Below are positions 15,386-30,687 of a stretch of DNA of 58,481 bases, piece by piece (positions within the stretch are counted from its first letter, which is position 1; each line of letters begins with the position of its first letter). The position numbers and the translations under genes are program-made. Below the pieces are notes generated by a model that made no database searches, was not told the origin of the DNA, and saw only the letters and a list, made by a program, of their open reading frames with translations. This DNA comes from Candidatus Nitrospira nitrificans (GTDB taxonomy: Bacteria; Nitrospirota; Nitrospiria; Nitrospirales; Nitrospiraceae). The stretch is from positions 1-58,481 of the forward strand of contig NZ_CZPZ01000016.1 in assembly GCF_001458775.1 (NCBI RefSeq), given 5' to 3'.

Positions 15386-15392
15386 ATACCTT

Positions 15393-16163
15393 ATGACCCC
15401 GGTGCAAGCCATCATCGCCAAGGAACTGCGCGGCTATTTCGTCTCTCCCATCGTCTACGTGGTCGGCGCGGTCTTTCTGTTGATCTTCGGACTGCTCTCC
15501 TACCTCTACGTTGGTTTTGCCGGGGCGCAAGCCATCCAATTGATGCAGATGCAGGGGGGAACGGCCCAGATCAACTTGAACGATCTGGTCTTCCGAAATC
15601 TGTTCGCGAGCATGCGGATCGTCCTCGTGATTATTCTGCCCATCCTGACCATGCGGTTGTTCGCGGAAGAGCGCAAGCTGCGAACCTTTGAATTTTTGAT
15701 GACCTCGCCGGTCAGAATCCATGAAATCGTTGTCGGCAAATTCGTCAGTGTCTTCGTGATCTATCTCGGCCTCGTCGGGCTGACCGTCTTGGTCCCCACC
15801 GTGCTGATGCTGTTCAGCGACTTCGACTGGAATCCCATCTGGACCGGCTATTTGGGCATGGTCCTGCTGGGAGCCCTGTTTCTTTCCGTGGGCCTGTTCG
15901 CCTCGGCGCTGACGGAAAATCAAATCGTCGCCGCCTTTGTGAGCTTCGGCTTGCTCCTGATCATCTGGTTGATCGCCGGACTGGGAAGCCTGTTCGGAGA
16001 TACCACCGCGGGCCGCGTCATCTCATATGTTTCATACATGGAACATTATGACCGGCTGGTGCGGGGGCTGATCGACACGAGCGACCTCCTGTACTTCGGC
16101 AGCGGATTGGCGCTCATGCTGTTTCTCACCCATCGCGTCGTGGAGTCGACCAGCTGGAAATGA
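15393..16163 (+). CDS. ABC transporter permease (GldF-like)
   Basis: A 256-residue membrane protein with about six hydrophobic segments: near 12-35, then SMRIVLVIILPILTMRLFAE, VFVIYLGLVGLTVLVPTVL, YLGMVLLGALFLSVGLFA, AAFVSFGLLLIIWLIAGLG and a last one near the end. It matches ABC-2 type permeases of the GldF/NosY group, including the MRLFAEERKLRTFEFLMTSP loop typical of them. It works with the ATPase just upstream. Its TGA stop overlaps the ATG of the GldG-like gene by four bases, which indicates translational coupling. Confidence 0.87.
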   Translation: MTPVQAIIAKELRGYFVSPIVYVVGAVFLLIFGLLSYLYVGFAGAQAIQLMQMQGGTAQINLNDLVFRNLFASMRIVLVIILPILTMRLFAEERKLRTFEFLMTSPVRIHEIVVGKFVSVFVIYLGLVGLTVLVPTVLMLFSDFDWNPIWTGYLGMVLLGALFLSVGLFASALTENQIVAAFVSFGLLLIIWLIAGLGSLFGDTTAGRVISYVSYMEHYDRLVRGLIDTSDLLYFGSGLALMLFLTHRVVESTSWK

Positions 16164-17683
16164 GTCTAAGATCCTTTCCTCTCGGCATTCTCGGCATCGC
16201 GCTCGGCCTCGGCGGCATGATCACCTACAGCCTTCGGCCCGACTGGCTGTGGGCCGTCACGATCGCGGAAGGGTTGGCGCTGGGATGCCTTGTCCTGTTC
16301 TTTGTCTTCCATTTCGAGGCGGTCAAGACGTTCTCCGGACGACGCTCGACCAGAATGGGGCTGAATAGCTTCCTGATGATCGTGCTGTTCACCGGCATTC
16401 TGGTCATCGTGAACTTTCTGGCCTCTCGACACTCGATCCGTTGGGACCTCTCGGAAAGTCAGAATTTCACGCTCGCTCCACAAACCCACCGAGTGCTTCG
16501 CGGTCTGCCCCACGACGTCAAAATTACCGTCTTCACGAGAGAAAAAGATCCCGGTTATCAAGTATTCAAGGAGCGGCTGGAGAGTTATCGGCAAGCCTCT
16601 CCCAAGCTCAGCGTGGAATTCATCGATCCGGAAAAACAGCCGAAATTGGCTCAGAACTATGGAATCTTCCGAACCGATACCGCCATTTTCGAGAGCAACG
16701 GCGAAACGATCCGCGTCACCTCTCCCTCGGAGGTGGAACTGACCGGCGCCTTGATCCGCATTTCCAAGGATGCCAAGAAGCGCATCGTCTTCGTCGAAGG
16801 CCACAGCGAACTGAATGTCGAGGATAAGGACCGCAACGGTCTCTCCATTGCCAAGGAGGCCCTGACCCGACAAGGCTATGAGGTCGGCACAGTCTCGCTT
16901 CTCAAGGAATCTGCCGTGCCGGATCATACCGCTGTGCTGGTGTTGGCAGGGCCGCGCCGCTCCGTGATGAAGGACGAGCAGGACCGTATCCAGGCCTACG
17001 TCGAGAAGGGCGGCCATCTCTTGGTCTTGACCGATCCCGATACACAGAGCGGGCTGGAATCATTGCTCGCCCGCTGGGGGCTTGGCCTGGGATCGGGGGT
17101 GTTAGTCGATCTGCAAGATCGATTGGCCCAGGGAGACCTCACCGCGCTGTTGGTCAGGACGTTTACCGAGCATGAGATCACTCAAGACCTGACCTCCGCC
17201 GTGCTGTTGCCGCTGTCCCGGCACGTGACCTTCGACGAGCAGGTCGGGAAAGACTGGGACTTCGTGCCGCTGGCCCGCACCTCGCCGAACAGCTGGGCTG
17301 AAACGAACATGCAAGGCCGGGTCGTGAGCCTGAACGAAAAGGAAGACGTGAAAGGACCGCTCCCCATGGCGGCCGCGCTGACGCCGAAGAAGGCCCCGGA
17401 GGAGAACACGCCTCGGCCCGCGATCGTGGTCATCGGAAACTCCACCTTCGCCTCCAATGCCTTTTTCAACTTCCCCGGCAACAGCGACTTTTTTCTCCAC
17501 ACGACCGGTTGGCTGGCCGAGGAACGGGATTTGATTTCCATCGCTCCGAAAGAGCCGGCATTGAGGCCGTTCACACCCAACCCCACTCAAGAACGGGCGT
17601 TGATTTACATCCAGGTCGTATTCCTTCCACTCCTGACGCTGCTCACCGGCGTCATCGTGTGGAGAAAACGCCGGCGTCTCTAG
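16160..17683 (+). CDS. GldG-like auxiliary protein of the ABC transporter
   Basis: A 507-residue protein. Two N-terminal membrane segments (about 6-25 and 70-90, FLMIVLFTGILVIVNFLA) and one at the C-terminus (about 482-502) hold a large periplasmic domain. That domain has the ABC_transp_aux (PF09822) pattern: WDLSESQNFTLAPQTHRVLR, VKITVFTREKDPGY, VEFIDPEKQP, and later VLAGPRRSVMKDEQDRIQAY with HLLVLTDPD. Members accompany GldA/GldF-type exporters. It starts inside the stop of the permease gene, and the DUF4340 gene follows 3 bp after its stop, so all four form one operon. Confidence 0.87.
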   Translation: MSLRSFPLGILGIALGLGGMITYSLRPDWLWAVTIAEGLALGCLVLFFVFHFEAVKTFSGRRSTRMGLNSFLMIVLFTGILVIVNFLASRHSIRWDLSESQNFTLAPQTHRVLRGLPHDVKITVFTREKDPGYQVFKERLESYRQASPKLSVEFIDPEKQPKLAQNYGIFRTDTAIFESNGETIRVTSPSEVELTGALIRISKDAKKRIVFVEGHSELNVEDKDRNGLSIAKEALTRQGYEVGTVSLLKESAVPDHTAVLVLAGPRRSVMKDEQDRIQAYVEKGGHLLVLTDPDTQSGLESLLARWGLGLGSGVLVDLQDRLAQGDLTALLVRTFTEHEITQDLTSAVLLPLSRHVTFDEQVGKDWDFVPLARTSPNSWAETNMQGRVVSLNEKEDVKGPLPMAAALTPKKAPEENTPRPAIVVIGNSTFASNAFFNFPGNSDFFLHTTGWLAEERDLISIAPKEPALRPFTPNPTQERALIYIQVVFLPLLTLLTGVIVWRKRRRL

Positions 17684-17686
17684 CCT

Positions 17687-19069
17687 ATGACTCGCTACTG
17701 GCCGACCCTCCTCATGTTCCTCCTCCTGGCTGGTCTAGGAACCTATCTCTACCTGGTGGAGCTTCCCGCCGAGCAGCGAGAAGAAAAGCAGGAACGCGCG
17801 CAGAAGCAACTCCTGCCTTTTCCGGACACCGCCATTACCGGCCTCTCGATCACCACCGCTCAGGGGCCCATCGAATTCAAGCTGACGGAACCGGGCAAAT
17901 GGTCGATCGTGGCTCCGCTTCAAACGGACGCCGATCAGCGCGAAGTGCAGGCGCTGATTCGAGCGCTCGTGACAGGAGCCGTCACCAGAACCGTCGAGGA
18001 ACAGGCGACACAGTTGGCGGCCTTCGGCCTTGAACAGCCGGTGACCACCCTCACCGTCACGGCCGGGACACAACAGGAGACGATTTCGATCGGCGACAGC
18101 GGTCCGCTGTCCAATACCCTCTATGTGCTTCGGGCATCGGACCGGAGCGTGTTGCTGACCAACCTGGCGCCGAAGAACTTCATCAACAGGTCGTTGATGA
18201 CATTCCGCCGAAAAGAGCTCTTGCGATTTGTCCAGAATGACATCGAACGAGTCCGCCTGACCTATGCCACCACTGAAATCGTGCTGTACAACATGGCCAA
18301 GGATAAGCCGAAACCGTTGTGGAAGATCCGCTATCCGATCGAAGCCGAAGCCGACCAGAATGAAGTCCGCTCGTTGATGTTTCGATTGGAAGATCTGAAA
18401 GCGCTCGGCATCATCGATCCCGGCCCTGAACGCGATACCATAGCCAAGACTCTGACGACCCCCAAGCTCAAAATCACGCTGCATACGGCAGCCGGGGACC
18501 AGTCCGTCCGGCTGTATCAACCGGACCCCCAGAGCGGAGAAGCCATCGCGGAGACCACCGCCGACGGCCCGCTCTATCGCATCAACCCCGCGCTGATCAG
18601 AGATCTCACGAAAGAACTCTTCACGCTCCAGGACAAACGACTGCTCGGCCTCGACTACACCGATATCGCCATGTTGTCGGTCAAGACACGGGAGCATCAG
18701 TACGTCTTGATCAACCAGACCGGCGAGTGGGTGCTCGAAGATCAGCCCCACGAGAAAATCAGCCAAGAAGCGGCGGATCTCTTTGTCAGCCGAGTCGCGA
18801 ATCTTCCCGCGGAAGAACGCGTCATGAAACAATCCGCGCCGCTTGCCCCCTATGGGCTCCTCGCGCCAGCCGCGGAGTTTGTGGCGACCGGCAAGGACGG
18901 CAAGACCATGGGAAAACTGACCCTCGGCAACAAGGCGGGCAATCTCCTCTATGCCAGCGGTCAACGTCTGCAAGGTGTCTTTCAGGTCCGGCCGGACCTT
19001 CTTACGCAGATCCCTTCCAAGACCGAGCTCCTCGCCAAATCACAGGGCACTTCGGAAACCGGGCGCTGA
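17687..19069 (+). CDS. DUF4340 domain protein (ABC-operon partner)
   Basis: A 460-residue protein with an N-terminal membrane anchor (LLMFLLLAGLGTYLYLVEL). The periplasmic part fits DUF4340 repeats: ITTAQGPIEFKLTEPGKWSI, QREVQALIRALVTG, FGLEQPVTTLTVTAGTQQ, and a second copy around LGLDYTDIAMLSVKTREHQY, GEWVLEDQP and YGLLAPAAEFVATGKDGK. The family nearly always lies beside GldG-like proteins, as here. The biochemical role is unknown, and binding of an exported substrate is a guess. It is the last gene of the ABC operon. Confidence 0.85.
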   Translation: MTRYWPTLLMFLLLAGLGTYLYLVELPAEQREEKQERAQKQLLPFPDTAITGLSITTAQGPIEFKLTEPGKWSIVAPLQTDADQREVQALIRALVTGAVTRTVEEQATQLAAFGLEQPVTTLTVTAGTQQETISIGDSGPLSNTLYVLRASDRSVLLTNLAPKNFINRSLMTFRRKELLRFVQNDIERVRLTYATTEIVLYNMAKDKPKPLWKIRYPIEAEADQNEVRSLMFRLEDLKALGIIDPGPERDTIAKTLTTPKLKITLHTAAGDQSVRLYQPDPQSGEAIAETTADGPLYRINPALIRDLTKELFTLQDKRLLGLDYTDIAMLSVKTREHQYVLINQTGEWVLEDQPHEKISQEAADLFVSRVANLPAEERVMKQSAPLAPYGLLAPAAEFVATGKDGKTMGKLTLGNKAGNLLYASGQRLQGVFQVRPDLLTQIPSKTELLAKSQGTSETGR

Positions 19070-19138: not shown

Positions 19139-19185
19139 CTCGTCCGTTCAGCAGCAGACCTCCTCTCCGCACAATGACGGCAAAC

Positions 19186-19250
19186 CCTTACCTATGTAGG
19201 GCTCGACCGAGTTCAACCCCTCTCGTAGTATCAGCGCCTATGGTTGGCGT
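19186..19250 (+). promoter_or_regulatory. Structured leader of lipoprotein 1 (copy 1 of 5)
   Basis: Hairpin 1 pairs CCTTAC (19186-19191) with GTAGGG (19196-19201) around loop CTAT, with one G-U pair. Stem 2 pairs AACC (19215-19218) with GGTT (19242-19245). The motif CTCGTAGTATC between the stem-2 arms is shared with copy 2. Confidence 0.45.
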
Positions 19251-19307
19251 TTATAAGCATGAACCAGTCCGGCACTCCTTAATTTAAAAGAAAGTGATCG
19301 GCGTCAT

Positions 19308-20924
19308 ATGAAACGGAACCTCATCTCCACGGGACAATGGCTTGTCACGCTTCTGATTCTCGCAATCGGCTTGAGTGCCTACGGCTGCGCGGACACCGCG
19401 TCAGTTTCGGAAAACGTCGCAGCGCCCTTGGCCAGCCTCACGGTTACCCCTGGTGACCTCCAGCCGGCATTTTTTTCCAATACCACGACCTACGCGGTCA
19501 ACGCGCCGACCGCTGCAACCAGCGTCACCGTGACAGCTGCCCCGAAGGACAGTACGGCCATAGTCACGATCGATGGGGTCGTGACCTCGCAACGGTCCGT
19601 GACCCTTGGTGGACCGGGATCGACCAAAACAATCCTTGTCGCGGTGGAAACACTGAATGGACTCGAGACCACCTATACCATCACCGTCACGAGACTCCGA
19701 TCGAGCGACAACAATCTGTCCGCTTTAACGGTGACACAAGGCTCCTTGGTTCCCGCCTTTACATCAAGCACCTTGGATTACTCGGTGAACGTGGCAACCA
19801 ACGTCACCAGCGTGACCGTCTCCGCCACCAAATCGGATCCGAATGCCGTGATATCCGGTGATGTGCCCAGCCAAGGACAAGCAACTATTCAGCTGGACGG
19901 GCCAGGGACCACCAAGATCATATCGGTCATTGTCACTGCGCCGAATGGCGACTCGAAGACGTACCGCATCACGGTAAACCGAGCGGCGCCTTCGAGCAAC
20001 AATACCCTGTCGGCCTTGAGCGTAACGCAGGGTTCTCTGGATCCCGCCTTTGCTGCCAATATATTGAACTACACGGTAAACGTGGCGACCACTGTCCCTA
20101 GCCTTGTGGTCTCTGCAACCAAGGCCGATGCGGATGCCGTGATGTCCGGCGACGTCACAGCCGGAGCTGGAATTGCAACCGGCCAAGCAACCATCCCGCT
20201 CGATGGGCCGGGGACAAGCAAGGTGGTATCGATCACCGTGACCGCGCCAAGTGGAGTCTTTCAAACGTATACCGTTACGGTGAACCGGGCCGCATCGAGC
20301 GATGACACTCTGTCGGCCTTGACAGTAACGGCGAATGCTGCCGTTCAACCGTTGGTCCCAGACTTCAATGCGAACGTCCTGACCTACACGGTCAATGTGG
20401 CTAACACCATCGATCAGGTAACCGTTGCCGCTACCAAGTCCGATCTGAATGCCGTGATGCTGATCGGATCCATCACCATCCCGGCCGGCACCACATCAGG
20501 TCAAGAGACCTTCCCGCTCGGCGGACCTGGTACCCCGACCGCCGTGTCGATTTCCGTGACCGCTCAGAGTGGAGGAGCCCCCAAGACCTATACCGTCACG
20601 GTGAACCGAGCGGCGCCATCGAGCGACGCCACCCTGTCGGCATTAATTGTGACAGGAGGCCCCTTGGTTCCTGACTTTGCTCCCAATGCCATGGACTACA
20701 CGTTGGACGTTCCATTCAGTGTCGACAGCGTGACCGTCTCGGCCACGAAATCCGACCCCAATGCCGTAATGTCCGGCGACGTCACAGCCGGGGCCGGGGC
20801 TCCAACAGGTCATGCAACCTTCCCACTCCTACCACTGCTCCCCAGAACGGTGTCGATCACTGTCATGGCTCCGAATGGAGACTCAAAGATATACTCCGTG
20901 ACGATCACTCGAGTTTTCCCCTAG
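19308..20924 (+). CDS. Cadherin-like beta-sandwich repeat lipoprotein 1 (5 repeats)
   Basis: A 538-residue outer-envelope lipoprotein. The signal peptide ends with a lipobox (LSAYGC), giving Cys27 as the lipidated residue. Ala at +2 argues against inner-membrane retention. The rest is five repeats of about 90-100 residues matching the cadherin-like beta-sandwich family (PF12733). Each opens like LSALTVTQGSLVPAF, passes through YSVNVATNVTSVTVSATKSD and closes with KTYTVTVNRAAPSS. These repeats are structural and adhesive; no enzyme motif is seen. The ATG follows GAAAGTGA at the same distance as in lipoproteins 3 and 5. It is first in a tandem array of five paralogues, each with its own leader. 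Confidence 0.88.
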   Translation: MKRNLISTGQWLVTLLILAIGLSAYGCADTASVSENVAAPLASLTVTPGDLQPAFFSNTTTYAVNAPTAATSVTVTAAPKDSTAIVTIDGVVTSQRSVTLGGPGSTKTILVAVETLNGLETTYTITVTRLRSSDNNLSALTVTQGSLVPAFTSSTLDYSVNVATNVTSVTVSATKSDPNAVISGDVPSQGQATIQLDGPGTTKIISVIVTAPNGDSKTYRITVNRAAPSSNNTLSALSVTQGSLDPAFAANILNYTVNVATTVPSLVVSATKADADAVMSGDVTAGAGIATGQATIPLDGPGTSKVVSITVTAPSGVFQTYTVTVNRAASSDDTLSALTVTANAAVQPLVPDFNANVLTYTVNVANTIDQVTVAATKSDLNAVMLIGSITIPAGTTSGQETFPLGGPGTPTAVSISVTAQSGGAPKTYTVTVNRAAPSSDATLSALIVTGGPLVPDFAPNAMDYTLDVPFSVDSVTVSATKSDPNAVMSGDVTAGAGAPTGHATFPLLPLLPRTVSITVMAPNGDSKIYSVTITRVFP

Positions 20925-21113
20925 AGATGATGCACTTGCTTGGTTAACGAGAGAGACCCATACGTTTTAGTATTCATCATGTCATGCCACGCAAGACGCT
21001 TCTTCCACTCTGCTGCGAATCACTCGTGAGCGGACAGGAGCCCTATCGGGAACCTACTCATCCATCATTCCAAAGTCGCCCAGACCGCTTCCTTCCATCG
21101 TGATTCGAGGATC
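20925..21113. other. Non-coding gap after lipoprotein 1
   Basis: No gene, clear terminator or repeat was seen here. The whole gap to the next gene is 354 bp; its second half carries the promoter and leader of lipoprotein 2. Confidence 0.4.
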
Positions 21114-21142
21114 TTGACCTCACCAGAAGGATCAGCTATAGG
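21114..21142 (+). promoter_or_regulatory. Candidate promoter of lipoprotein 2
   Basis: TTGACC (21114-21119) and TATAGG (21137-21142) are 17 bp apart. The spacer ends GGATCAGC, resembling the GGATTGGC and GGATCGGT spacers of lipoproteins 3 and 5. Confidence 0.5.
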
Positions 21143-21156
21143 TACACTACCTATTT

Positions 21157-21230
21157 CCCCCTATACATAAGTAGGGGTAGACCAATCTTTAGCCGTCTCG
21201 TAGTATCCGCACCTTCTATCGAGGTTCATA
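21157..21230 (+). promoter_or_regulatory. Structured leader of lipoprotein 2 (copy 2 of 5)
   Basis: Hairpin 1 pairs CCCCTA (21158-21163) with TAGGGG (21172-21177). CTCGTAGTATC starts at 21197 and GGTTCA is at 21223-21228, 21 bp after CTCGT as in copies 3 to 5. Stem 2 is weak in this copy; GACC near 21179 could pair with GGTT. Confidence 0.45.
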
Positions 21231-21278
21231 ACGATGGACCCGCACTCCACACCTCCTAGAGAAAGAGACCACACCACC

Positions 21279-23618
21279 ATGATGCGTACCCTGACCGTCG
21301 TAAGACAGTATCTCGCTGCCTCGTTCCTCTTTGGGATCGGTCTGGTCGCCTACGGCTGCGGCGATTCAGCGACGGTTAGCGAGCCGGCAGAACTCGGTGG
21401 CCTATCGGTCTCCACAGGAACACTGGAACCGCCTTTTAATCCTGCAACAACTGATTACACGGTTCAGCTCTCCAGTGACGTCTCGAGTACGACCATCACC
21501 GCCAGCCCGCGAGTCGCTGGCGACACCATACGGATCGACAACCAGCCGACAACGAGTCAGACTATTACGCTCGACTCGCCAGGCGCTGAGAAATCCGTCA
21601 GTATCGTTGTCACAGATTCAGGCGCAGGAGGCGGTTCGAAATCTTACACCGTTCGTGTCAGGCGGGACTTAGAGGACAATTCGTTACGGGCCCTGTCCGT
21701 TTCGAGCGGAACTCTGGCTCCCTCTCCATTCGACAAGGATACGCTTAACTATTCGGTCAATGGCGTGGGTGCATCTGTTACCAGCATCACCATCTCCGCC
21801 ACCAAGTCGGACCAAGATTCGATAATGCGGATTGGTTCGGTCACTGTCCCGGCGGGAACTCCATCAGGACAAGCGACTGTTCAGCTCGGCAACACAGGGT
21901 CAGCCACACCTGTGTCGATAGAGATTACGCGTCCGGGCGGGAGTAAGAAGACTTACACGGTTACTATAAATCGCGGCCCATCAGACAATAGCTTCCTGCA
22001 AAGCTTATCCCTTCCGCCGGGACTGCAGTTAAACCCGAGGTTCGGATCCAGCATAACCGGCTATGAAGTCAATGTAGCAAACAACGTGACCAGCATCACG
22101 GTAACTCCCAGGGCGCAAGATACCACTGCGCGTATATCGGTCAATGGGCTAGCCACTGCCTCAGGGCAACCCTCCCAGCCCATTCTCTTGAATGAACCAG
22201 GTGTTAACGCCTCGAGAACCAACATCAACATCACCGTGATCGCTCAAAATAATAACACCCAGAAGGTCTACACGGTAACAGTCATTCGTGCCGCTCTTGG
22301 CGGGAATAACAATCTGTCGGCCTTGAGTGTGAGAGCAGGGACGACGACGCTTTCCTTGTCGCCATCACCATTTGATTCGAACACCCTGGTCTACACAGGC
22401 AATGTGGCAAACAATGTGACGGAGGTCGCCGTAACCGCAACGCGCCAGGATGCAAATGCCAGCATCACCGTGAATGGGCAGCCCACGAACTCCGGGGCAG
22501 CTCGCACCGTTACCCTCATCCCCGCAGGTCAAAACCAAAGCACGACGACCATTCCGATTATCGTGACTGCGCAGAACAGCAGCCAGAAAACCTATACCGT
22601 CAACATCATTCGTGCCGCCCTTGGAGGAAACAACAACCTGCAGAGCTTGACCGTCCAGAGTTTGAATGTTCCCTCCCACACCCTGTCTCCCCCATTTAGC
22701 CAGACGAGGGCCAGGACCGACTATGCACTGGATGTCGACAACAACGTTGGCAGCATTACTGTGAATGCGATTCCTCAGGATAGTGGCGCGAGCGTTAGAA
22801 TCCTTGTCAACGGCGCGGCAAGTGGTACAAATTCCATCTCTCTGCCACTTGGTCCATCCACGACAGAAATAGAAATTATTGTGAGGGCACCGAATGGGAC
22901 CGAGAAGCCGTATTCCATCACCGTGGACCGCGCAGCAGCATCAAGCAACAATAATCTGTCTGCTTTGAGTGTGCGAGTAGGTAATATAGCTCAGCCCTTG
23001 TCTCCTCCTTTTGCTGCGGGCACTTTGGCCTACACGGTAAACGTGGCGAGCAGTGTCAACGAGGTGACCGTCGCCGCCACCAAGGCAGATCGCGACGCCA
23101 CAATGGCGATAGGTAGTGTTACCGTCCCACCAGGCACCCTAACGGGAGAGACAACCGTACCTGTGAATACCACACTATCGATCGCTGTCACGGCACCAAG
23201 CGGGGGAGCCCCAAAGACCTACACCGTCACGGTCAATCGAACTGTAGCAGAACCACCACCCCCCACCGTCGCGCCGGATTTGATACGCGAGGATGACACC
23301 TGTCCCCCTGGTATTCCCCCTGCTGAATGCGCTCCGGACTTTAACGGCAATCCCACCAGTAGGGAAGACAACATCACCAGCGTCACAAGACCAAGATTCA
23401 GCATACCTCCGCCGGGTGCGGGAGAGACGGCAAAACTTTACAGAGATGGAGTCGAGGAACCTTCGTCTTTTAATTCAGGAGACAACACCCTCAGGCCGAA
23501 CAACCCGTTGCCTGATGGAGCTTATGACATCACCTACACCTTAAGTAATTCCGGTAGTGAGTCTGGCCCGAGTCCGGCCATGACGCCACAATTGCAGATC
23601 AATACAAGCGCGCCGTAG
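21279..23618 (+). CDS. Cadherin-like beta-sandwich repeat lipoprotein 2 (6 repeats plus Ig-like tail)
   Basis: A 779-residue lipoprotein, the longest of the five. I place the start at 21279 (MMRTLTVVRQYL), which puts the lipid-attachment Cys at 27 as in lipoproteins 1, 3 and 5. GAAAGAGACC upstream aligns with GAAAGTGACC of its paralogues. A start at 21234 would add 15 residues before the signal. Six PF12733-type repeats follow (openings LGGLSVSTGTLEPPF, LRALSVSSGTLAPSPF, LSALSVRAGTTTLS and others). After a Pro-rich hinge (EPPPPTVAP) there is a different C-terminal domain of about 110 residues (DNITSVTRPRFSIPPPGAGE, KLYRDG, LPDGAYDITYTLSN) resembling bacterial Ig-like domains. Only this copy has that tail. 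Confidence 0.87.
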   Translation: MMRTLTVVRQYLAASFLFGIGLVAYGCGDSATVSEPAELGGLSVSTGTLEPPFNPATTDYTVQLSSDVSSTTITASPRVAGDTIRIDNQPTTSQTITLDSPGAEKSVSIVVTDSGAGGGSKSYTVRVRRDLEDNSLRALSVSSGTLAPSPFDKDTLNYSVNGVGASVTSITISATKSDQDSIMRIGSVTVPAGTPSGQATVQLGNTGSATPVSIEITRPGGSKKTYTVTINRGPSDNSFLQSLSLPPGLQLNPRFGSSITGYEVNVANNVTSITVTPRAQDTTARISVNGLATASGQPSQPILLNEPGVNASRTNINITVIAQNNNTQKVYTVTVIRAALGGNNNLSALSVRAGTTTLSLSPSPFDSNTLVYTGNVANNVTEVAVTATRQDANASITVNGQPTNSGAARTVTLIPAGQNQSTTTIPIIVTAQNSSQKTYTVNIIRAALGGNNNLQSLTVQSLNVPSHTLSPPFSQTRARTDYALDVDNNVGSITVNAIPQDSGASVRILVNGAASGTNSISLPLGPSTTEIEIIVRAPNGTEKPYSITVDRAAASSNNNLSALSVRVGNIAQPLSPPFAAGTLAYTVNVASSVNEVTVAATKADRDATMAIGSVTVPPGTLTGETTVPVNTTLSIAVTAPSGGAPKTYTVTVNRTVAEPPPPTVAPDLIREDDTCPPGIPPAECAPDFNGNPTSREDNITSVTRPRFSIPPPGAGETAKLYRDGVEEPSSFNSGDNTLRPNNPLPDGAYDITYTLSNSGSESGPSPAMTPQLQINTSAP

Positions 23619-23649
23619 GGGGGAGTCGGTAGAGGGATCGTTTGCCACT

Positions 23650-23673
23650 CTTGTGAAGACACTTTTTCACAAG
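23650..23673. repeat. Short perfect inverted repeat after lipoprotein 2
   Basis: CTTGTGAA (23650-23657) and TTCACAAG (23666-23673) form an 8-bp stem with an 8-nt loop, 31 bp after the stop codon. It has no T-run, so it is at best a weak terminator. Confidence 0.35.
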
Positions 23674-23763
23674 GCTGTGCCACGAGCGCTGGCTCTCCTT
23701 GAAAATTCCCTCATCGCACATGCTTGCCACACACCTCGCTTCTCCACGTCTCGATTTGACGTC

Positions 23764-23792
23764 TTGACCTCCCCGGTCGGATTGGCTATATC
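23764..23792 (+). promoter_or_regulatory. Candidate promoter of lipoprotein 3
   Basis: TTGACC (23764-23769) and TATATC (23787-23792) are 17 bp apart, with the spacer ending GGATTGGC as in the sister promoters. Confidence 0.5.
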
Positions 23793-23799
23793 TGTCACT

Positions 23800-23862
23800 C
23801 CTACTTCGCCTCAGTAGACACTCGAACCCTCTCGTCGTTTCCACATTCGCGTTTGGGTTCAC
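23800..23862 (+). promoter_or_regulatory. Structured leader of lipoprotein 3 (copy 3 of 5)
   Basis: Hairpin 1 pairs CTAC (23801-23804) with GTAG (23814-23817). Stem 2 pairs GAACCC (23824-23829) with GGGTTC (23855-23860), with CTCGT directly inside the left arm. Stem 2 is identical in copy 5. Confidence 0.5.
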
Positions 23863-23911
23863 CAGAGCACACAGGCTCATCACTTCACGCATCAAGGAAA
23901 GTGACCGCCTC

Positions 23912-25522
23912 ATGGGACGCTCGTTCACTATTGCCGTGCAATACCTTGCCTCTTCCCTCATCCTCATGATGGGGTTGAATCTGGTCGGCTGCTCGGACTC
24001 GGCATCGGTCAATCCCGTGGTCGAGCTGGCCAGTCTAATCGTCACCACCGGAACCACCGACGCAACGCTGCAACCGTCGTTTCACCCGGCCACGACGAAC
24101 TACACCGTTGATCTCTCCACCAACCTCACGAGCGTCACCGTCACTGCTCAACCGGCGGTGACCGGCGACAGCGTAACGATCAATGGCGAGGCGACGACCA
24201 GCCGCCCCATCCCGCTCGGCGGGGCCGGAACGACGACCCCCGTGAATATCGTCGTGTCAGAATCGGGCACCAATTCGAGGACCTATACGATCCTGCTTAC
24301 GAAAGCGGACCTCACGGGAAACAATTCGTTGCGGAGTTTGTCGATCTCCCCGAGCGCTCTCAACCCAAGATTTGATCGCAATACCCTGAGCTATGAAGTC
24401 GCTGTCGCAAGCACCGTCGACAGCATGAGGGTGACGCCCGCCTTAGACGATCCTGCTGCAACCATGACGGTGAATGGGCAACCCGCGACCTCCGGGCAAG
24501 CCCACACTATTCCACTGCGTGATCCTGGGCTGAGCACGATTCTCACGATTACCGTCACCGCGCAGAACGGCACCCCGAAAACCTACACGGTGGTCGTCAC
24601 CCGCGCCGCGCTTGGCGGGAATAACAATCTTCAAAGCTTGACGGTGTCGCCGAGCCGTTTGGACCCAGCATTTAGCCCGAGCCGGACAAGTTATACGGTC
24701 AATGTCGATGGCAGGGTCGACAGCATCGCGGTGACCGCCGCGCCTCAAGATGCGAATGCGCGCATGACGATCGATGGACAAGAAACGAGGTCGCGTTCAA
24801 TCCCCCTGCCGGTAGGTCCATCGGACACGGAAATCGAAATTCTCGTGACCGCCCCGAATGGCACCCAAAAGACGTACCTCATCACCGTGAGCCGTGAGGC
24901 GCTTTCGGGCAACAACAACCTGTCCGCTCTGACGGTGACACCGGGCGCCTTGGCTCCTGCCTTCACTCCTGATCAGCTGACCTATACCGTGGACGTGGCG
25001 ACCGGTGTCTCCCGTCTCACCGTCACCGCAACGGTTCAGGATTCAAATGCCGGCTTGCTGATCGATGGACAAGGAATCAGCTCCGGTCAACCACGCGAGA
25101 TTTCGCCGCTGGCACCTCCAGGATCGGATACCGTCATCACCATCCTCGTGCGAGCACCCAGTGGAGCTGAAAAGACCTACAGGGTCACCGTAAAACGACC
25201 GCTGCCCTCAAGCGACGCCGCGCTCTCGGCCTTGACCGTAAGCGCAGGCATCTTGAATCCAGGATTTGCCGCCGGCACGCCGACCTATACGGTCACTGTC
25301 CCGGCCGGCGTCGACAGCATGACGGTAACGGCGACCAAGTCTGATCCGAATGCGGTGCTGTCATCGTCAGGGTCCGTGATCGCGCCGGCAGGAACCTTAA
25401 CCGGAAGCGTAAGCGGTTCACTCGGCTTGGGAACCACGACCCTCTTCACCCTGGCCGTGAGCGCTCAGGATGGAGTGAGCACCAGGCAGTACACGATCAC
25501 CGTCTTCAGAGATTCGCGCTAG
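23912..25522 (+). CDS. Cadherin-like beta-sandwich repeat lipoprotein 3 (5 repeats)
   Basis: A 536-residue lipoprotein with a classical lipobox (LNLVGC, Cys27) followed by Ser-Asp, consistent with an outer-membrane lipoprotein. Five PF12733-type repeats open with LASLIVTTGTTDATLQPSF, LRSLSISPSALNPRF, LQSLTVSPSRLDPAF, LSALTVTPGALAPAF and LSALTVSAGILNPGF. AAGGAAAGTGA precedes the ATG. The last repeat is almost identical in DNA to the last repeat of lipoprotein 5, a sign of recent duplication or gene conversion. The role is inferred to be surface structure, adhesion or matrix. Confidence 0.88.
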   Translation: MGRSFTIAVQYLASSLILMMGLNLVGCSDSASVNPVVELASLIVTTGTTDATLQPSFHPATTNYTVDLSTNLTSVTVTAQPAVTGDSVTINGEATTSRPIPLGGAGTTTPVNIVVSESGTNSRTYTILLTKADLTGNNSLRSLSISPSALNPRFDRNTLSYEVAVASTVDSMRVTPALDDPAATMTVNGQPATSGQAHTIPLRDPGLSTILTITVTAQNGTPKTYTVVVTRAALGGNNNLQSLTVSPSRLDPAFSPSRTSYTVNVDGRVDSIAVTAAPQDANARMTIDGQETRSRSIPLPVGPSDTEIEILVTAPNGTQKTYLITVSREALSGNNNLSALTVTPGALAPAFTPDQLTYTVDVATGVSRLTVTATVQDSNAGLLIDGQGISSGQPREISPLAPPGSDTVITILVRAPSGAEKTYRVTVKRPLPSSDAALSALTVSAGILNPGFAAGTPTYTVTVPAGVDSMTVTATKSDPNAVLSSSGSVIAPAGTLTGSVSGSLGLGTTTLFTLAVSAQDGVSTRQYTITVFRDSR

Positions 25523-25550
25523 AGATCATGCAGATTAGTCTCACCATCTG

Positions 25551-25579
25551 TTGACCTCCTCTACCCATTAGAGAGAACC
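25551..25579 (+). promoter_or_regulatory. Weak candidate promoter of lipoprotein 4
   Basis: TTGACC (25551-25556) is conserved with its sisters, but the matching -10 position (25574-25579, AGAACC) is poor. This copy may be less active. Confidence 0.25.
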
Positions 25580-25596
25580 ATGCGCCGACCCTGCTT

Positions 25597-25667
25597 ATCC
25601 TACGCAAGTAGGGATAGATCCATTCAGGAATCCTTTCGTAATATCTGCCTCTACCCTATGGTTCACA
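25597..25667 (+). promoter_or_regulatory. Structured leader of lipoprotein 4 (copy 4 of 5)
   Basis: Hairpin 1 pairs CCTAC (25599-25603) with GTAGG (25608-25612) and is capped by GCAA, a GNRA-type tetraloop. Stem 2 pairs GAATCC (25628-25633) with GGTTC (25660-25664) with one bulged base. TTCGTAATATC lies between the arms. Confidence 0.5.
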
Positions 25668-25719
25668 CGGGTGGCTGGACCCAACAGGTTATCCAGCAAG
25701 AGCACGTGCTGGGTCCACC

Positions 25720-26730
25720 ATGCGACGATTCTTCATCATCCCAATACGGTATGTGGTCATCACTCTTTTCGCCGGAGCCACCAACTTGGGTCTGCATGGC
25801 TGCACGGACACAGGATCGATTGATCCAGGCCCTCAACTTGCCGGCCTCTCGGTCTCCAGCGCATCGCTTCAACCGCCGTTCGCCCGCGAAACGACCGGAT
25901 ACATCGTTGATTTGCCCGGCAACAGCCCTGACCTAACCGTCTTGGCAACCAAGTCCGATCCGAATGACGTATTGTCTGGTGCGATCACTGCCCCAGCAGG
26001 GCAAGCTACCGGGCAAACAACGATTTCACCCCCTGGCCCTGGGTCAACCAAAGATATCTCACTGACCGTCACGTCCCCGGATGGAAGAGCCAAGATCTAC
26101 ACGATTACCCTGAGAGCGATAACTCTTGGCTGGGATAACACTCTTCGGAGTTTGACCCTGTCGCCAGGTGCCTTATCTCCTGCCTTTTCCGCAGGAACTC
26201 AGGACTACCGTGTGAACGTAGCCGCCGCTGTCACCGAGGTAACCGTCTCGGCAACCAAGTCTGATCCAACCGCCGTGATATCGGGTGATGTACCGAACGA
26301 AGGACGAGCGACGATCATACTCAACGGGCCAGGAACAACGAAGGTGGTGTCGATTGTCGTCACGGCGCCGAATGGAACCTCAAGGGCCTACACCATCACC
26401 GTGGTACGAGCGGCCCCTTCGAGCGATGATGCTCTATCCGGCTTGATTGTGAGCCCAGGTTCACTGGACCCTGATTTTGCTTCGGGAATCTTGAACTACC
26501 GAGTTGATGTTGATAATAACGTGGACCGTGTGCTCATCTCGGCCACGAAGTCCGATCCGAATGCGACGATGTTCGCGTTTGGTTCAGTGATCGCCACGGC
26601 AGGAACACCCACGGGGCAGGTATCCCTCCCACTGGACGGGAGACGCACCGAGGCCGACATCACCGTGACCGCTCAAGACGGCCTGAGTACAAATTCTTAT
26701 ACCATCACCGTCATCCGATCTCGCCGATAG
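25720..26730 (+). CDS. Cadherin-like beta-sandwich repeat lipoprotein 4 (3 repeats)
   Basis: A 336-residue lipoprotein. The N-terminus MRRFFIIPIRYVVITLF is followed by a lipobox-like NLGLHGC with Cys28, which is less typical because of His before Gly. Three PF12733-type repeats open with LAGLSVSSASLQPPF, LRSLTLSPGALSPAF and LSGLIVSPGSLDPDF. A GTAATGTCC-like start context is absent. The upstream region lacks the GAAAGTGA sequence present before lipoproteins 1, 3 and 5, and an inverted repeat (CTGGACCCAACAGG and GCTGGGTCCA) lies between the leader and the ATG instead. With its poor -10 box, this copy looks the least well expressed of the five. Confidence 0.85.
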   Translation: MRRFFIIPIRYVVITLFAGATNLGLHGCTDTGSIDPGPQLAGLSVSSASLQPPFARETTGYIVDLPGNSPDLTVLATKSDPNDVLSGAITAPAGQATGQTTISPPGPGSTKDISLTVTSPDGRAKIYTITLRAITLGWDNTLRSLTLSPGALSPAFSAGTQDYRVNVAAAVTEVTVSATKSDPTAVISGDVPNEGRATIILNGPGTTKVVSIVVTAPNGTSRAYTITVVRAAPSSDDALSGLIVSPGSLDPDFASGILNYRVDVDNNVDRVLISATKSDPNATMFAFGSVIATAGTPTGQVSLPLDGRRTEADITVTAQDGLSTNSYTITVIRSRR

Positions 26731-26900
26731 GCGGTAGCCCGCGCTTCAAGCCTGGGCGAACGCAAGCCTTGTTTTCTCACTCGCACATCGACGAAAGGTA
26801 TCCCCGCAGTGAGGGAGAGATCCGCGAGACAGGGCTGATCCTCAACGCTCCCACGGGCACCATTTAGGATCTTCCTATCCCTCTCCCTCGATCTGATCTG
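26731..26900. other. Non-coding gap after lipoprotein 4
   Basis: No gene or repeat was recognised in this first half of a 330-bp intergenic region. Its second half holds the promoter and leader of lipoprotein 5. Confidence 0.4.
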
Positions 26901-26929
26901 TTGACCCCATTAGTTGGATCGGTTATAGA
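26901..26929 (+). promoter_or_regulatory. Candidate promoter of lipoprotein 5
   Basis: TTGACC (26901-26906) and TATAGA (26924-26929) are 17 bp apart, with the spacer ending GGATCGGT as in the sister promoters. Confidence 0.5.
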
Positions 26930-26942
26930 ATGACGGCTGCTC

Positions 26943-27011
26943 GGCCTACGAAAAATCCTGACAGGCCGCCGTTGAACCCTCTCGTGATCTCGATACCTGC
27001 CGTTTGGGTTC
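26943..27011 (+). promoter_or_regulatory. Structured leader of lipoprotein 5 (copy 5 of 5)
   Basis: Hairpin 1 pairs GGCCT (26943-26947) with AGGCC (26963-26967). Stem 2 pairs GAACCC (26974-26979) with GGGTTC (27006-27011), with CTCGT directly inside. The hairpin-1 sequence differs from the other copies but pairing is kept. Confidence 0.5.
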
Positions 27012-27060
27012 ACTCAATAATTAGGCTCGTTGCTGTTACTTAGAAAGTGGCCCATATCAT

Positions 27061-28065
27061 ATGCACCGTACACTCACCGTCGCTCGACAATGTTTCGCCG
27101 GCATTCTTTCCTTGACCATCGTCCTCAGCGCCTCCGGCTGCAAAGATACGGGATCGATCTCGGAGGGACCACAGGTACGGCTTTCCGGCTTGTCGGTCTC
27201 CGAGCCCGGACTCCAACCGGCTTTTTCGAGCGCAATCACCGCCTATACGCTCACTGTTCCGTCAACCGTCGACAGCGTGACGGTGACCGCCACTCCGGAA
27301 AACAGCAATGCCGGTATCACTATCGCGGGGACCGTGACCCGAAGTCTTTCCGTGAACCTCAATCCTCCAGGATCGAGCAAAGACATCACCATTACCCTTA
27401 CCGATCAGAGCGGAAGTCAAAGCTCCTACGTCATCACGGTGAACCGGGCAGCTCCATTATCGGGCAACAATGAGTTGTCGAACCTGACTGTGTCCTCAGG
27501 GAGTTTGACTCCGGGGTTTTCACCGGGCACGCTGAGCTATGTCGTGGATGTGGCAACCGGCGTCACCAGTGTAGATATCGCGGCAACCAAATCCGACCCT
27601 AATGCCGTCGTATCCGGAGATCTCCCGAATAGCGGGCAAGCGACCATTCCGCTCGATGGACCAGGAAGCAGCAAGACCGTCTCGATCACCGTGACCGCGC
27701 CCAATCAAGTTTCCAGGACCTACCGCATCACGATCAACCGACTCGCGCCCTCGAACAATGCCGATCTATCGGCCTTGTCCGTAAGCGCAGGCATCTTGAA
27801 TCCTGGATTTGCCGCCGGCACACCGACCTATACGGTCACTGTCCCGGCCGGCATCGACAGCATGACGGTGACGGCGACCAAGTCTGATCCGAATGCGGTG
27901 ATGTCCGCATCAGGGTCCGTGATCGCGCCGGCAGGAACCTTAACCGGAAGCGTAAGCGGTTCACTCGGCTTGGGAACCACGACCCTCTTCACCATAACCG
28001 TGATCGCTCAGGATGGAGTGAGCACCAAGCAATACTCGATCACCGTCTTCAGAGATTTGCGCTGA
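27061..28065 (+). CDS. Cadherin-like beta-sandwich repeat lipoprotein 5 (3 repeats)
   Basis: A 334-residue lipoprotein, lipobox LSASGC with Cys27 and Lys at +2. Three PF12733-type repeats open with LSGLSVSEPGLQPAF, LSNLTVSSGSLTPGF and LSALSVSAGILNPGF. AGAAAGTGG precedes the ATG (CATATG context shared with lipoprotein 1). The signal peptide MHRTLTVARQCFAG is closest to that of lipoprotein 2 (MMRTLTVVRQYLAA), while the last repeat is nearly identical to that of lipoprotein 3, so the gene looks like a mosaic of its neighbours. It closes the array. Confidence 0.88.
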   Translation: MHRTLTVARQCFAGILSLTIVLSASGCKDTGSISEGPQVRLSGLSVSEPGLQPAFSSAITAYTLTVPSTVDSVTVTATPENSNAGITIAGTVTRSLSVNLNPPGSSKDITITLTDQSGSQSSYVITVNRAAPLSGNNELSNLTVSSGSLTPGFSPGTLSYVVDVATGVTSVDIAATKSDPNAVVSGDLPNSGQATIPLDGPGSSKTVSITVTAPNQVSRTYRITINRLAPSNNADLSALSVSAGILNPGFAAGTPTYTVTVPAGIDSMTVTATKSDPNAVMSASGSVIAPAGTLTGSVSGSLGLGTTTLFTITVIAQDGVSTKQYSITVFRDLR

Positions 28066-28316: not shown

Positions 28317-28988
28317 CTACCGTTTCGGATCCAATTCGATCAGGCCTTTACGGATGGCGAGAATGGCCGCTTGTGTGCGGTCATAGACTTGTAGCTTGTG
28401 GAAAATGTTTCGAACGTGATTCTTGACCGTCTTTTCGCTCAAATCAAGGTTGTTGGCGATCTCCTTGTTAGTTTTCCCGTCGGCAACCAATCGTAACACC
28501 GTAATCTCCCGCTCCGTCAGATCATGCTCGGCCCAGGATGACTTCTTCCCCTTCTTTTGGGCCATCAACGAGAATTCCGCCAGGATTTTACTGGCGACGG
28601 ACGGATGTATCAGCGATTCACCCCGATAGATCGCTCGAATGGCCGCCACGATTTGCGACGATTCCGAGTCTTTCAAGAGATAGCCTGTGGCGCCCGCGCG
28701 GACAAGATCGAAGATGTACTGTTGTTCTTCGTACATGGTCAACGCCACGATGCCGATGTGGGGAAACTCACGTTTGACTTGTCTGGTAGCCTCGACGCCT
28801 CCCATCCGTGGCATGCTCACATCCATGAGAATCACATCCGGAAGCAGCGCCCTGGCCTTCTCGACGGCCTCCGCGCCGTCTTGCGCTTCGCCGATGACAT
28901 GAATATCCTCTTTGGTCTTGAGAATGGCCGCCAAGCCTTCCCGAACCACCCGGTGATCGTCGGCGATCAGCACCTTAATTTTCTCCAT
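28317..28988 (-). CDS. LuxR/NarL-family response regulator
   Basis: A 223-residue two-component regulator. The receiver domain (about 4-120) has the acidic pair Asp10-Asp11, the phosphoacceptor Asp56 (DVILMDVSMPRMGG) and a Lys in YLLKDSES. The C-terminal LuxR helix-turn-helix (about 150-215) reads LTEREITVLRLVADGKTNKE then IANNLDLSEKTVKNHV. The start at 28988 is chosen because GAGGGG lies just upstream. It overlaps the end of the kinase gene by 14 bp, so the two form a coupled pair. It is next to the lipoprotein array, with its stop 252 bp from the end of lipoprotein 5. Control of the array is possible but only suggested by position. Confidence 0.92.
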   Translation of the reverse strand: MEKIKVLIADDHRVVREGLAAILKTKEDIHVIGEAQDGAEAVEKARALLPDVILMDVSMPRMGGVEATRQVKREFPHIGIVALTMYEEQQYIFDLVRAGATGYLLKDSESSQIVAAIRAIYRGESLIHPSVASKILAEFSLMAQKKGKKSSWAEHDLTEREITVLRLVADGKTNKEIANNLDLSEKTVKNHVRNIFHKLQVYDRTQAAILAIRKGLIELDPKR

Positions 28989-30078
28989 TGCCCCTCTCTT
29001 CCCGATGCCCCAGCGGCACCTCGACGATGATTTTCGTGCCCTTGCCCGGTTTCGATTGAACGCGTCCCTCTCCTCCCACCAATCGAGCTCGTTCCAAGAT
29101 GCCCTTGATGCCGAAATGATCCCACTTTTCCGGGTCGCGCAGCACGGCCTCCTGATCGAATCCGATTCCATTGTCGGCGATGGTGACCCGCAACAGATCC
29201 ATATCCATGTCCAGCTTGATCGAGACTCGATCGGCCCGCGCATGCTTTTGCACGTTGCTCAAGGCCTCCTGGATGATGCGAAAGAGAAAGATCTTCGTCC
29301 GCGGGAAGAGAATCTGTTCATCTCCCGTCACGGAAAACTTCGTGGCGATATGGGTCTGGAGCTGATACGACTTGAAATAATTCGTCAGCGCGGGAATCAA
29401 TTCCATCTTGTCGTAGTGCAGGGGACGCAGGTTGAAGATCACTTGGCGGGCTTCCTGGATGGCCAATTTCAGTTGAGCCTTGCTCTCCTTGATGGTGGCT
29501 AAACTGGCCCGCGGGTTTTTCCGGATGAGTTGCTGGCAGAGATCCAGTTTGAAGTTCACACCCGCCAAACTCTGCACGAATCCGTCGTGGATCTCGCAGG
29601 CGATTCTCGTCCGCTCCTCCGTCACCGCCGCCCCGGTCTCTTTCACGTACAACCGATACAGGGATTGATATTTGTTCAACGTCTTCTCGATTTCCGCCGT
29701 CGCGCGAATACGGGCTCCGATCAGTTCCCACATGAATTTCGCGCTGGCGCCGCCGATCACGGTGACACCCATTCGATGAAAATCTTGCAGGAACGTTCCA
29801 ACCCCCGCATCACCCGACACATCGATGATCAAATCGACGCGCTCCATCGCGAGCAGCTGCCGATAGTCGGGCGTGATCGGGATTCTGAGCCGGCGAGCCA
29901 ACTCTACTCCTGGAGCGTTCGGATCGAGCTCCGCGACGCCGACAATCCGCACGAGGGGATCGTTCGCAAAGATCTCCATCAATGCGGTCCCTCCGCGACC
30001 GGCGCCGATAATGGCGACGTTTGTCGCCCCGGAGGTCGGCGTGTTCCGTGGAACGCGCTGAGGGGGAGGCTTCTTCAT
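28975..30078 (-). CDS. NarX-type sensor histidine kinase with N-terminal Rossmann domain
   Basis: A 367-residue protein without membrane segments or signal peptide. Residues about 20-125 form an NAD(P)-binding-like Rossmann domain: glycine motif GAGRGG at 25-30 after a hydrophobic strand (VAII), AELDPNAPG at the second strand, DYRQLL and VDLIIDVSGD, resembling GFO/IDH-type dehydrogenases. A short coiled helix follows. The HisKA_3 motif RIACEIHDGFVQSLAGV has the phosphoacceptor His at about 164. The ATPase domain has the N box (RIIQEALSNVQKHA), DNGIGF and GKGTKIIVEV. The ATG at 30078 is preferred because AGGAAG lies upstream; a GTG at 30126 is the other option. It is cytoplasmic and may sense a nucleotide or redox ligand, which is inference. 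Confidence 0.88.
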   Translation of the reverse strand: MKKPPPQRVPRNTPTSGATNVAIIGAGRGGTALMEIFANDPLVRIVGVAELDPNAPGVELARRLRIPITPDYRQLLAMERVDLIIDVSGDAGVGTFLQDFHRMGVTVIGGASAKFMWELIGARIRATAEIEKTLNKYQSLYRLYVKETGAAVTEERTRIACEIHDGFVQSLAGVNFKLDLCQQLIRKNPRASLATIKESKAQLKLAIQEARQVIFNLRPLHYDKMELIPALTNYFKSYQLQTHIATKFSVTGDEQILFPRTKIFLFRIIQEALSNVQKHARADRVSIKLDMDMDLLRVTIADNGIGFDQEAVLRDPEKWDHFGIKGILERARLVGGEGRVQSKPGKGTKIIVEVPLGHREERGNGEN

Positions 30079-30189
30079 CGGTAGGGCGCTTCCTGCACAA
30101 GGATTGTCGGAGCTCACAACGACCACGCGTCGAATCCGGGAACATGAACGAGGTTGGGAGAGAGGGGTGAGGGATCCAGACGGTACGTC

Positions 30190-30654
30190 TTAACTCTCAC
30201 GCCGGTGCTGAGCAAGCGTTTGTAACTCGTCCATAAATTGGTCGATGTCCTTGAACTCTCGATACACGGACGCAAACCGGACATAGGCGACCTGATCCAG
30301 CTGATGCAACTCTTTCATAACCTCTTCACCGACGACCCGGCTTTCAATTTCAGTCTCGCCCATCTCCTGAATCCGTTTTTCTATCCGATCGGTGACGGCC
30401 TCAATGGTGCCGATACTGATCGGCCGCTTTTCACAGGCCTTTTTCAACCCGACGAGAATCTTGTTCCGATCAAACGACTCCCGGCGGCCGTCCTTCTTCG
30501 CCACGACCGGCAGTATTTCCTCGACTCGCTCGTAGGTGGTATAGCGGCGTTTACAACCAAGGCATTCACGACGTCGGCGGATGACCTCGCCTTCCTTGGC
30601 CATGCGGGAATCGACCACCTTGTCTTCGAGTTCATCGCAGAACGGACATTTCAC
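30190..30654 (-). CDS. nrdR: Transcriptional repressor NrdR
   Basis: A 154-residue protein of normal NrdR length. The N-terminal zinc ribbon uses Cys3, Cys6, Cys31 and Cys34 (CPFC and CLGC). Residues about 45-140 form the ATP-cone, with [20 protein letters not shown] near its start. NrdR senses ATP/dATP and represses ribonucleotide reductase genes by binding NrdR boxes. No nrd gene is in the window. The gene lies 33 bp after glyA on the same strand, a linkage common in bacteria. Confidence 0.95.
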
Positions 30655-30687
30655 CGGTGGCGACCCTGCCCTCTCACGATCAGCTGG

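Follow-up and report, generated by a model that had tools for sequence, protein, structure and literature searches.

A conserved leader element upstream of tandem PF12733 lipoprotein genes in Candidatus Nitrospira nitrificans and other Nitrospira

Introduction

The message for the Escherichia coli surface protein gene ompA carries a stabilising stem-loop at its 5' terminus, and the vsa and vlp systems of mycoplasmas are variable lipoprotein arrays with conserved leaders. Here we describe a leader element in a 58,481-nucleotide stretch of DNA from Candidatus Nitrospira nitrificans (contig NZ_CZPZ01000016.1, the whole stretch being hereafter the window), in which five lipoprotein genes lie on the same strand (19308-28065), each with its own leader just 5' of it. 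The leader is a real element which is missing from the RNA libraries searched: it has blocks conserved across paralogues and species, it is placed before genes of the PF12733 family and it has a local 5' hairpin. It is some 80-90 nucleotides long, with its 3' end about 50 nucleotides before the start codon. An earlier note, made from the sequence of this stretch alone, had thought it unlike known riboswitches and, in agreement with this, the 58481-base window gave no match at the gathering score to Rfam release 15; the array region gave one weak match (E 2.2), on the minus strand and inside a gene. A literature search turned up no matching description, which is not proof of absence in print.

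Five leaders of three types

PF12733 loci were collected from relatives, and their leaders were located by an anchor and sorted into three types, giving alignments of type I (A2, 38 rows), type III (A3, 10 rows) and type II (A4, 8 rows). In alignment A6, 19 of 21 rows were used (L053:25-123 and L031:3687-3785 were left out), and two anchors (L050:8268-8366 and L031:15587-15685) were dropped as chance or coding. Two covariance models were built, R1 from type I leaders and R2 from types II and III (19 rows). Type I, to which copies 1, 2 and 4 of the window belong, has CCnUAC, four nucleotides and GUAGG, and then UnGACC; copy 3 is of type III and copy 5 of type II.

19174-19257, + strand: leader copy 1 (type I; R1 75.3 bits, E 2.3e-20, R1 training row, core match), with hairpin CCCTTAC/GTAGGG at 19185-19201, a CGACC block, the core TCTCGTAGTATC at 19221-19232 and a degenerate GGCGTTTA at 19246-19253
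21149-21232, + strand: leader copy 2 (type I; R1 81.4 bits, E 3.2e-22, R1 training row, core match), with hairpin CCCCTA/TAGGGG at 21158-21177, TAGACC, the core at 21196-21207 and AGGTTCA at 21222-21228
23785-23863, + strand: leader copy 3 (type III, compact; R2 76.6 bits, E 3.2e-16, R2 training row), with hairpin CTAC/GTAG at 23801-23817, GAACCC at 23824-23829 and GGGTTCA at 23855-23861
25587-25670, + strand: leader copy 4 (type I; R1 62.5 bits, E 1.8e-16, R1 training row, core match), with CCTAC-GCAA-GTAGG at 25599-25612, the core at 25634-25645 and GGTTCA at 25660-25665
26922-27014, + strand: leader copy 5 (type II; R2 59 bits, E 7.8e-12, R2 training row), with hairpin GGCCT/AGGCC at 26943-26967, GAACCC at 26974-26979 and GGGTTCA at 27006-27012

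Each window copy matches its own model by construction (copies 1, 2 and 4 train R1, and copies 3 and 5 train R2), which makes these matches weaker proof; copies 3 and 5 were also found by R1 (E 0.0019 and 0.007) without being among its training rows. Reading of the sequence bore out several details that the earlier note had given, namely that a hairpin recurs at the places named in all five leaders, that GAACCC/GGGTTC is present in copies 3 and 5, and that CTCGT (TTCGT in copy 4) is followed by GGTTCA at a near-constant spacing (21, 20, 20 and 21 base pairs in copies 2 to 5).

Distribution of the element and its link to PF12733 genes

PF12733 was found in 27 of 59 relatives, mostly of the same genus, and R1 matched 24 of the 59 at E <= 0.05. 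Across the genus R1 matched 42 of 79 genomes at E <= 0.01, showing that a covariance model built from the leaders, a check which had been proposed at the outset, does find the element widely in Nitrospira; R2 matched 9 of 33 genomes at E <= 0.05. R1 matches extend to genomes that supplied no training rows, with E down to about 1e-21 (for example in G092), and are thus beyond chance. A leader pattern run against genome contigs matched six records, five from Nitrospira and one from Nitrospiraceae. PF12733 was unmatched in all nine sister-genus genomes, where nothing matched in that search (the same family search that found it in 27 of the 59 relatives), and R1 scores in these nine reached 18.9 bits at most.

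A total of 129 distinct element copies was located in 56 loci (849557 bases). By a motif test, which was a regular expression and not a profile, a PF12733-like open reading frame (ORF) lies directly 3' of 124 of these and, by eye, of three more (L130, which is masked, L136:10887 and L100:3743), the remaining two copies running off a contig end (L055:8632 and L042:112). Most of loci L031-L059 had been picked for PF12733 and are partly circular for the gene link, but 25 of the 56 loci (L100 and L124-L147) had been picked by R1 match and not by PF12733, and the gene link was the same there. From the side of the genes, the array lipoprotein ORFs whose 5' end is complete number 160, and 121 of them have a model match. 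In 35 genomes of the genus, both PF12733 and the element (E < 1e-3) were present in 20 and neither in 11, with PF12733 alone in four (G022, G023, G026 and G027) and the element alone in none. The element is best read as genus-restricted and tied to a single gene family, that of the PF12733 lipoproteins in Nitrospira.

A wider regulon before unrelated genes was considered and rejected, as 127 of the 129 copies precede PF12733-like genes; six off-array matches elsewhere (E 0.015-0.046) were not read. In its own genome R1 gives five matches at E <= 0.05, which are the five window leaders only, and a wider regulon or an antisense partner there was rejected from exact matches to TYTCGTARTATC, four forward (three of them window leaders and the fourth inside an ORF on the opposite strand) and none in reverse. 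Also discarded were palindromes of the repetitive extragenic palindromic (REP) or bacterial interspersed mosaic element kind, since by R1 the own genome has no copies beyond the array, and viral copies, one leader pattern having matched nothing in viral contigs. Besides the six already named, the off-array R1 matches in relatives were two in G041 (best E 1.9e-4), in REP-like repeats. An order-level relative (L101, 900-1260) has repeated GTAGGGG(T/C)AGACC palindromes which imitate part of R1, beside an ORF that we take to be akin to REP-type transposases.

Conservation is concentrated in short blocks

Changes per column were counted by parsimony over a single 78-row tree of type I leaders (81 of the 111 R1 rows, scoring at least 44.5 bits, of which 78 were left after dropping duplicates and rows with N). 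The stem columns TAC and GTAGGG had 0-3 changes and the outer 5' strand of the stem 3-7, compared to 10-22 in columns 1-14. In the T-GACC block the T, G, A and C columns had 0-1 changes, save one C with 4, and the variable base had 6; in the core, the CGTA columns had 0-2 changes and AT had none.

As wholes, the window leaders are pairwise 57-66% identical, which is near the shuffled level (mean 59% and maximum 68% in 200 shuffles of one pair), and so the shared signal lies in the short blocks. Orthologous leaders in G007 are 76-93% identical, compared to the 57-66% of paralogues, and homogenisation therefore does not explain the shared blocks; each leader thus evolves with its own gene, with the blocks kept by selection. 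The same figures bear on the explanation that the leaders have no function and are just similar upstream DNA left by duplications, as might be expected of genes which form a tandem paralogous family. We consider this highly improbable, as the leaders have diverged widely outside the blocks while the blocks are almost unchanged in the 78 type I rows, and as paralogous leaders, compared over their full length, are about as alike as shuffled sequences. A leader peptide was rejected by reading, which revealed neither a conserved start codon nor a three-base periodicity in the change counts.

The first hairpin and the second stem

The first (5') hairpin is paired in 94.3% of cells of the 38-row alignment A2 and in 95% in a larger set. 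Of 24.0 change events at intact pairs, 15.0 left the pair intact, where 9.6 +- 2.1 would be expected; the p of about 0.011 carries no correction for the seven helices examined. In 67 representatives the fold of the 5' segment is more stable than those of its dinucleotide shuffles (mean z -0.86 +- 0.15), with upstream DNA as a control giving +0.11 +- 0.11 (65 representatives). In one clade (L032, L033, L037, L046 and L134) the stem is CCUC/GAGG-like, with the bulge moved. Together these results give moderate support to the 5' hairpin being real. The compensatory base changes which the earlier note had described between the five leaders proved weak: copies 1-4 have nearly one stem sequence (CCTAC/GTAGG and wobble forms of it), only copy 5 of the five having a different stem, at a shifted place, and two-sided changes were seen in only 5 cells of the 38 type I leaders.

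The second stem did not hold up as a general feature. In type I it is paired in 62% of cells and 25.6 of 84.3 events were kept compared to 25.0 expected (p about 0.5), giving no sign of selection on pairing, and in types II and III, with 96% of cells paired, 11.4 of 18.4 were kept compared to 8.1 expected (p about 0.08), a weak sign; over all types the figures were 40.6 of 117.3 and 36.3 (p about 0.18). A general conserved helix was rejected on the pair-keeping and helix-scan results; if the second stem holds anywhere, it does so in copies 3 and 5. A G-test of the kind used in R-scape found no significant, mostly canonical pair in the leaders and none in thiamine pyrophosphate (TPP) riboswitches either (30 sequences, and then 40 found among 57 loci), and is thus uninformative; in the all-types set two pairs had E < 0.05, only 43% and 2% canonical. 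In the pair-keeping test, the TPP control kept the pair phylum-wide in 11.8 of 14.3 events compared to 6.3 expected (p about 0.005), though its helices were defined by the consensus fold of the very alignment tested, a choice that biases towards pairing; within the genus alone there were 7.3 events, too few, and no signal.

Copy 4 also has rival hairpins, given here with their shared strand.

25599-25603, + strand: CCTAC, one 5' strand of copy 4
25589-25596, + strand: CCCTGCTT, the rival 5' strand
25606-25613, + strand: AAGTAGGG, the one 3' strand common to both

Such strands might make the leader a ligand-sensing riboswitch with alternative pairings, in which two 5' strands of copy 4 and similar leaders vie for a common 3' strand and GGUUCA pairs upstream or, in some types, downstream. 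Copy-4-like leaders do have competing 8-base-pair hairpins, minimum-energy folds of both kinds occur among type I leaders, and copies 1, 3 and 4 are predicted to fold with hairpins near the ribosome-binding site. We nevertheless think a riboswitch very unlikely. The outer pairing fails to persist over the whole collection (paired in 44-72% of cells, with no excess of kept pairs), and CCCTGCTT/AAGTAGGG was rejected as a conserved alternative helix, being good in copy-4-like and some copy-2-like leaders and not in the whole set. Only one gene family is involved, and an expression platform is not apparent: the window leaders have no + strand terminator-like site, so that a terminator was rejected there, and sequestration of the ribosome-binding (Shine-Dalgarno) site by the core was rejected because, over 63 leaders, the pairing did not exceed that of permuted or shuffled controls.

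Other possible pairings were noted by eye. In copy 4, GGACCCA (25677-25683) and TGGGTCC (25710-25716) flank the ribosome-binding region just 5' of the ATG, and a pair like this is kept in similar leaders of L034, L031 and L050. Directly 3' of the copy 2 element is a GGTTCAT-AACG-ATGGACC hairpin (21223-21240), and GGTTCAT-N4-ATGAACC is found in several copy-1- and copy-2-like leaders and not in other types.

Promoter-like sites and the possibility of control at the DNA level

Reading of the sequence, and scanning with TTGACC or TTGACA as the -35 word (TTGACC was chosen after being seen in the leaders), gave the following sites in the window, all four with TTGACC.

21114-21142, + strand: promoter-like TTGACC-17-TATAGG, copy 2
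23764-23792, + strand: promoter-like TTGACC-17-TATATC, copy 3
26901-26929, + strand: promoter-like TTGACC-17-TATAGA, copy 5
25551-25579, + strand: TTGACC with a poor -10 (AGAACC), copy 4, by reading; the similar leader L034:6427 is at shuffle level in the scan

Of 67 representatives, 33 have a best promoter-like pair that scores 10 or 11 of 12, which none of 67 shuffles does. With the 5' end of the element set at a constant 84 nucleotides before its 3' end, the -10 ends 2-7 bases before that assumed 5' end in 16 of the 33, and lies between -17 and +18 in the other 17, most of which are compact or shortened matches. Representatives of type A (copy-1-like) and those like copy 4 do no better than shuffles. 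What points to a promoter is thus a word that recurs at the same position, and not a match to the consensus.

Promoter-like pairs placed at the element or shortly before it, as in these 33 representatives, together with a hairpin whose sequence varies between leader types, would suit a plain stabiliser of the message, in which a 5'-terminal hairpin guards the transcript from decay and the rest is inherited spacer and ribosome-binding site. This we judge improbable, as it leaves the conservation of the downstream UnGACC and UCGUAnnAU unexplained.

Control at the DNA level is the strongest rival explanation, and although on balance unlikely it is a serious possibility: the blocks 3' of the promoter would bind a transcription factor acting on the array genes, with the hairpin incidental. 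Seven columns show no change at all, and five of these are outside both stems; the promoter spacer seems conserved by eye in copy 2, 3 and 5 kinds of leader, and GAACCC and GGGTTC could be half-sites. However, the blocks are not palindromic by eye, and the 5' segment folds better than shuffles. That the element persists whether or not a leader has the promoter-like pair also points to a role after transcription initiation. The adjoining response regulator was rejected as an array-specific partner, being found in 75 of the 79 genus genomes compared to 42 for the element.

The favoured interpretation

We favour, while giving it about an even prospect of being right, a genus-restricted control element of the 5' untranslated region (5' UTR), with a 5' hairpin and unpaired recognition blocks that would be read by a trans-acting factor. 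The leader would be transcribed and act as RNA, and in about half of the leaders, those with a promoter-like pair at the element or shortly 5' of it, the hairpin would lie near the 5' end of the transcript, which it may shape or protect. One trans-acting factor, either an RNA-binding protein or a small RNA, might read the unpaired UnGACC and YUCGUARUAUC and, less strictly, GGUUCA, and the array members could thus be set together, after transcription start, through a common control handle. More tentatively, and in our view rather unlikely, the leaders may form a new, Nitrospira-only class of 5'-UTR control RNA in which a 5'-terminal hairpin and a UnGACC/UCGUAnnAUC/GGUUCA recognition face serve one factor that would set the output of the entire surface-lipoprotein family, and competing 5' strands act as a switch.

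Several results weigh against this 5'-UTR element. Blocks of conserved sequence would fit a DNA-binding site no less than an RNA-binding one, the GGTTCA block is only loosely conserved (5-12 changes in each column of the type I tree), and 39 of the 160 array lipoprotein ORFs have no model match, though the core is visible by eye in some. Covariation is thin, with one double change in the first hairpin, whose z of 2.56 is exceeded by at least 15 of 3056 arbitrary 5-base-pair helices, and by one among the 32 of these with more than 70% of cells paired. Four of the whole window leaders fold within the shuffle range (z 0.05, -0.54, -1.15 and 0.20), that of copy 3 having z -1.92 with 10 of 200 shuffles as good, and over the representatives the second-stem, downstream and full-length segments barely beat shuffles (z -0.35, -0.24 and -0.32, each +- 0.14-0.15). 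Pairing of the core to the ribosome-binding region is absent (-5.95 for own partners, -6.24 permuted and -5.94 shuffled, in the 63 of 67 representatives with a usable start and core, a few cores being mis-anchored). Finally, in a stricter sigma-70 scan, for which the -10 must end in T, the window leaders have no promoter and the 8-kb region has 2 sites, compared to 3.8 in shuffles.

The suggestion in the earlier note of a new cis-regulatory RNA therefore stands in part: the leaders share conserved sequence that lacks an Rfam match, and the 5' hairpin has moderate support, but the second stem is unsupported in type I. The two-part protein-binding site which it had offered as another option may also be correct, because the model leaves many of the most conserved bases unpaired. 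The leaders define a family not in the Rfam copy searched, and the covariance models should ease annotation in new genomes. They also give a testable handle on the control of a large surface-lipoprotein family in nitrifying Nitrospira.

The lipoprotein genes and their neighbourhood

The products of the five genes are built of PF12733 cadherin-like repeats, as identified by Pfam.

19308-20924, + strand: PF12733 lipoprotein 1 (Pfam E 2.1e-61)
21279-23618, + strand: PF12733 lipoprotein 2 (Pfam E 4.9e-85, query from 21273; likely start ATG 21279 or 21282)
23912-25522, + strand: PF12733 lipoprotein 3 (Pfam E 1.6e-81)
25720-26730, + strand: PF12733 lipoprotein 4 (Pfam E 5.1e-34)
27061-28065, + strand: PF12733 lipoprotein 5 (Pfam E 7.7e-45)
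14183-19069 and 28317-31962: array neighbourhood in the window, on the ATP-binding cassette (ABC) transporter side and the response regulator side respectively

An in-frame ATG is present at 21234, 5' of lipoprotein 2, and the interval 21234-21278 includes the likely ribosome-binding site; relatives have a similar upstream reading (MNLPHHASGERDYIAM-like). In most loci that are long enough, the array is flanked on one side by an ABC transporter operon (ATPase, permease, GldG-like and DUF4340) and on the opposite side by a block of response regulator, kinase, NrdR and GlyA genes. L138 and L140 have a PF12733 gene and the element with none of the usual neighbours. Two of the 39 ORFs without a model match, at L051 2463 and L054 8436, are PF12733 lipoproteins of a different kind, and they lack the usual neighbours as well. 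The histidine kinase gene of the window (28975-30126, - strand) seems, by resemblance, to encode a nucleotide-binding (Rossmann-like) domain at its start.

Comparison with known systems

The leader resembles the cis-regulatory RNAs of Rfam in being a conserved element, in a predicted 5' UTR, before one functional class of genes and in combining a hairpin with conserved unpaired bases, but differs from them in having few supported helices and in being confined to one genus and one gene family. Against the TPP riboswitch (RF00059), which served as a yardstick and occurs in 70 of the 79 genus genomes, it is similar in length; TPP helices, however, keep pairing in 83% of events (phylum set) compared to 62% for the first hairpin and 30% for the second stem of the type I leader. 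Like the ompA stem-loop, the leader hairpin may be 5'-terminal on the message for a surface protein, but in the leader further conserved unpaired blocks come after the hairpin. The array shares with the mycoplasma vsa and vlp systems its tandem paralogous lipoproteins with a common 5' region, and differs from them in that the five genes of the window all run in the same direction, each with its own leader, and in that the paralogous leaders are not homogenised.

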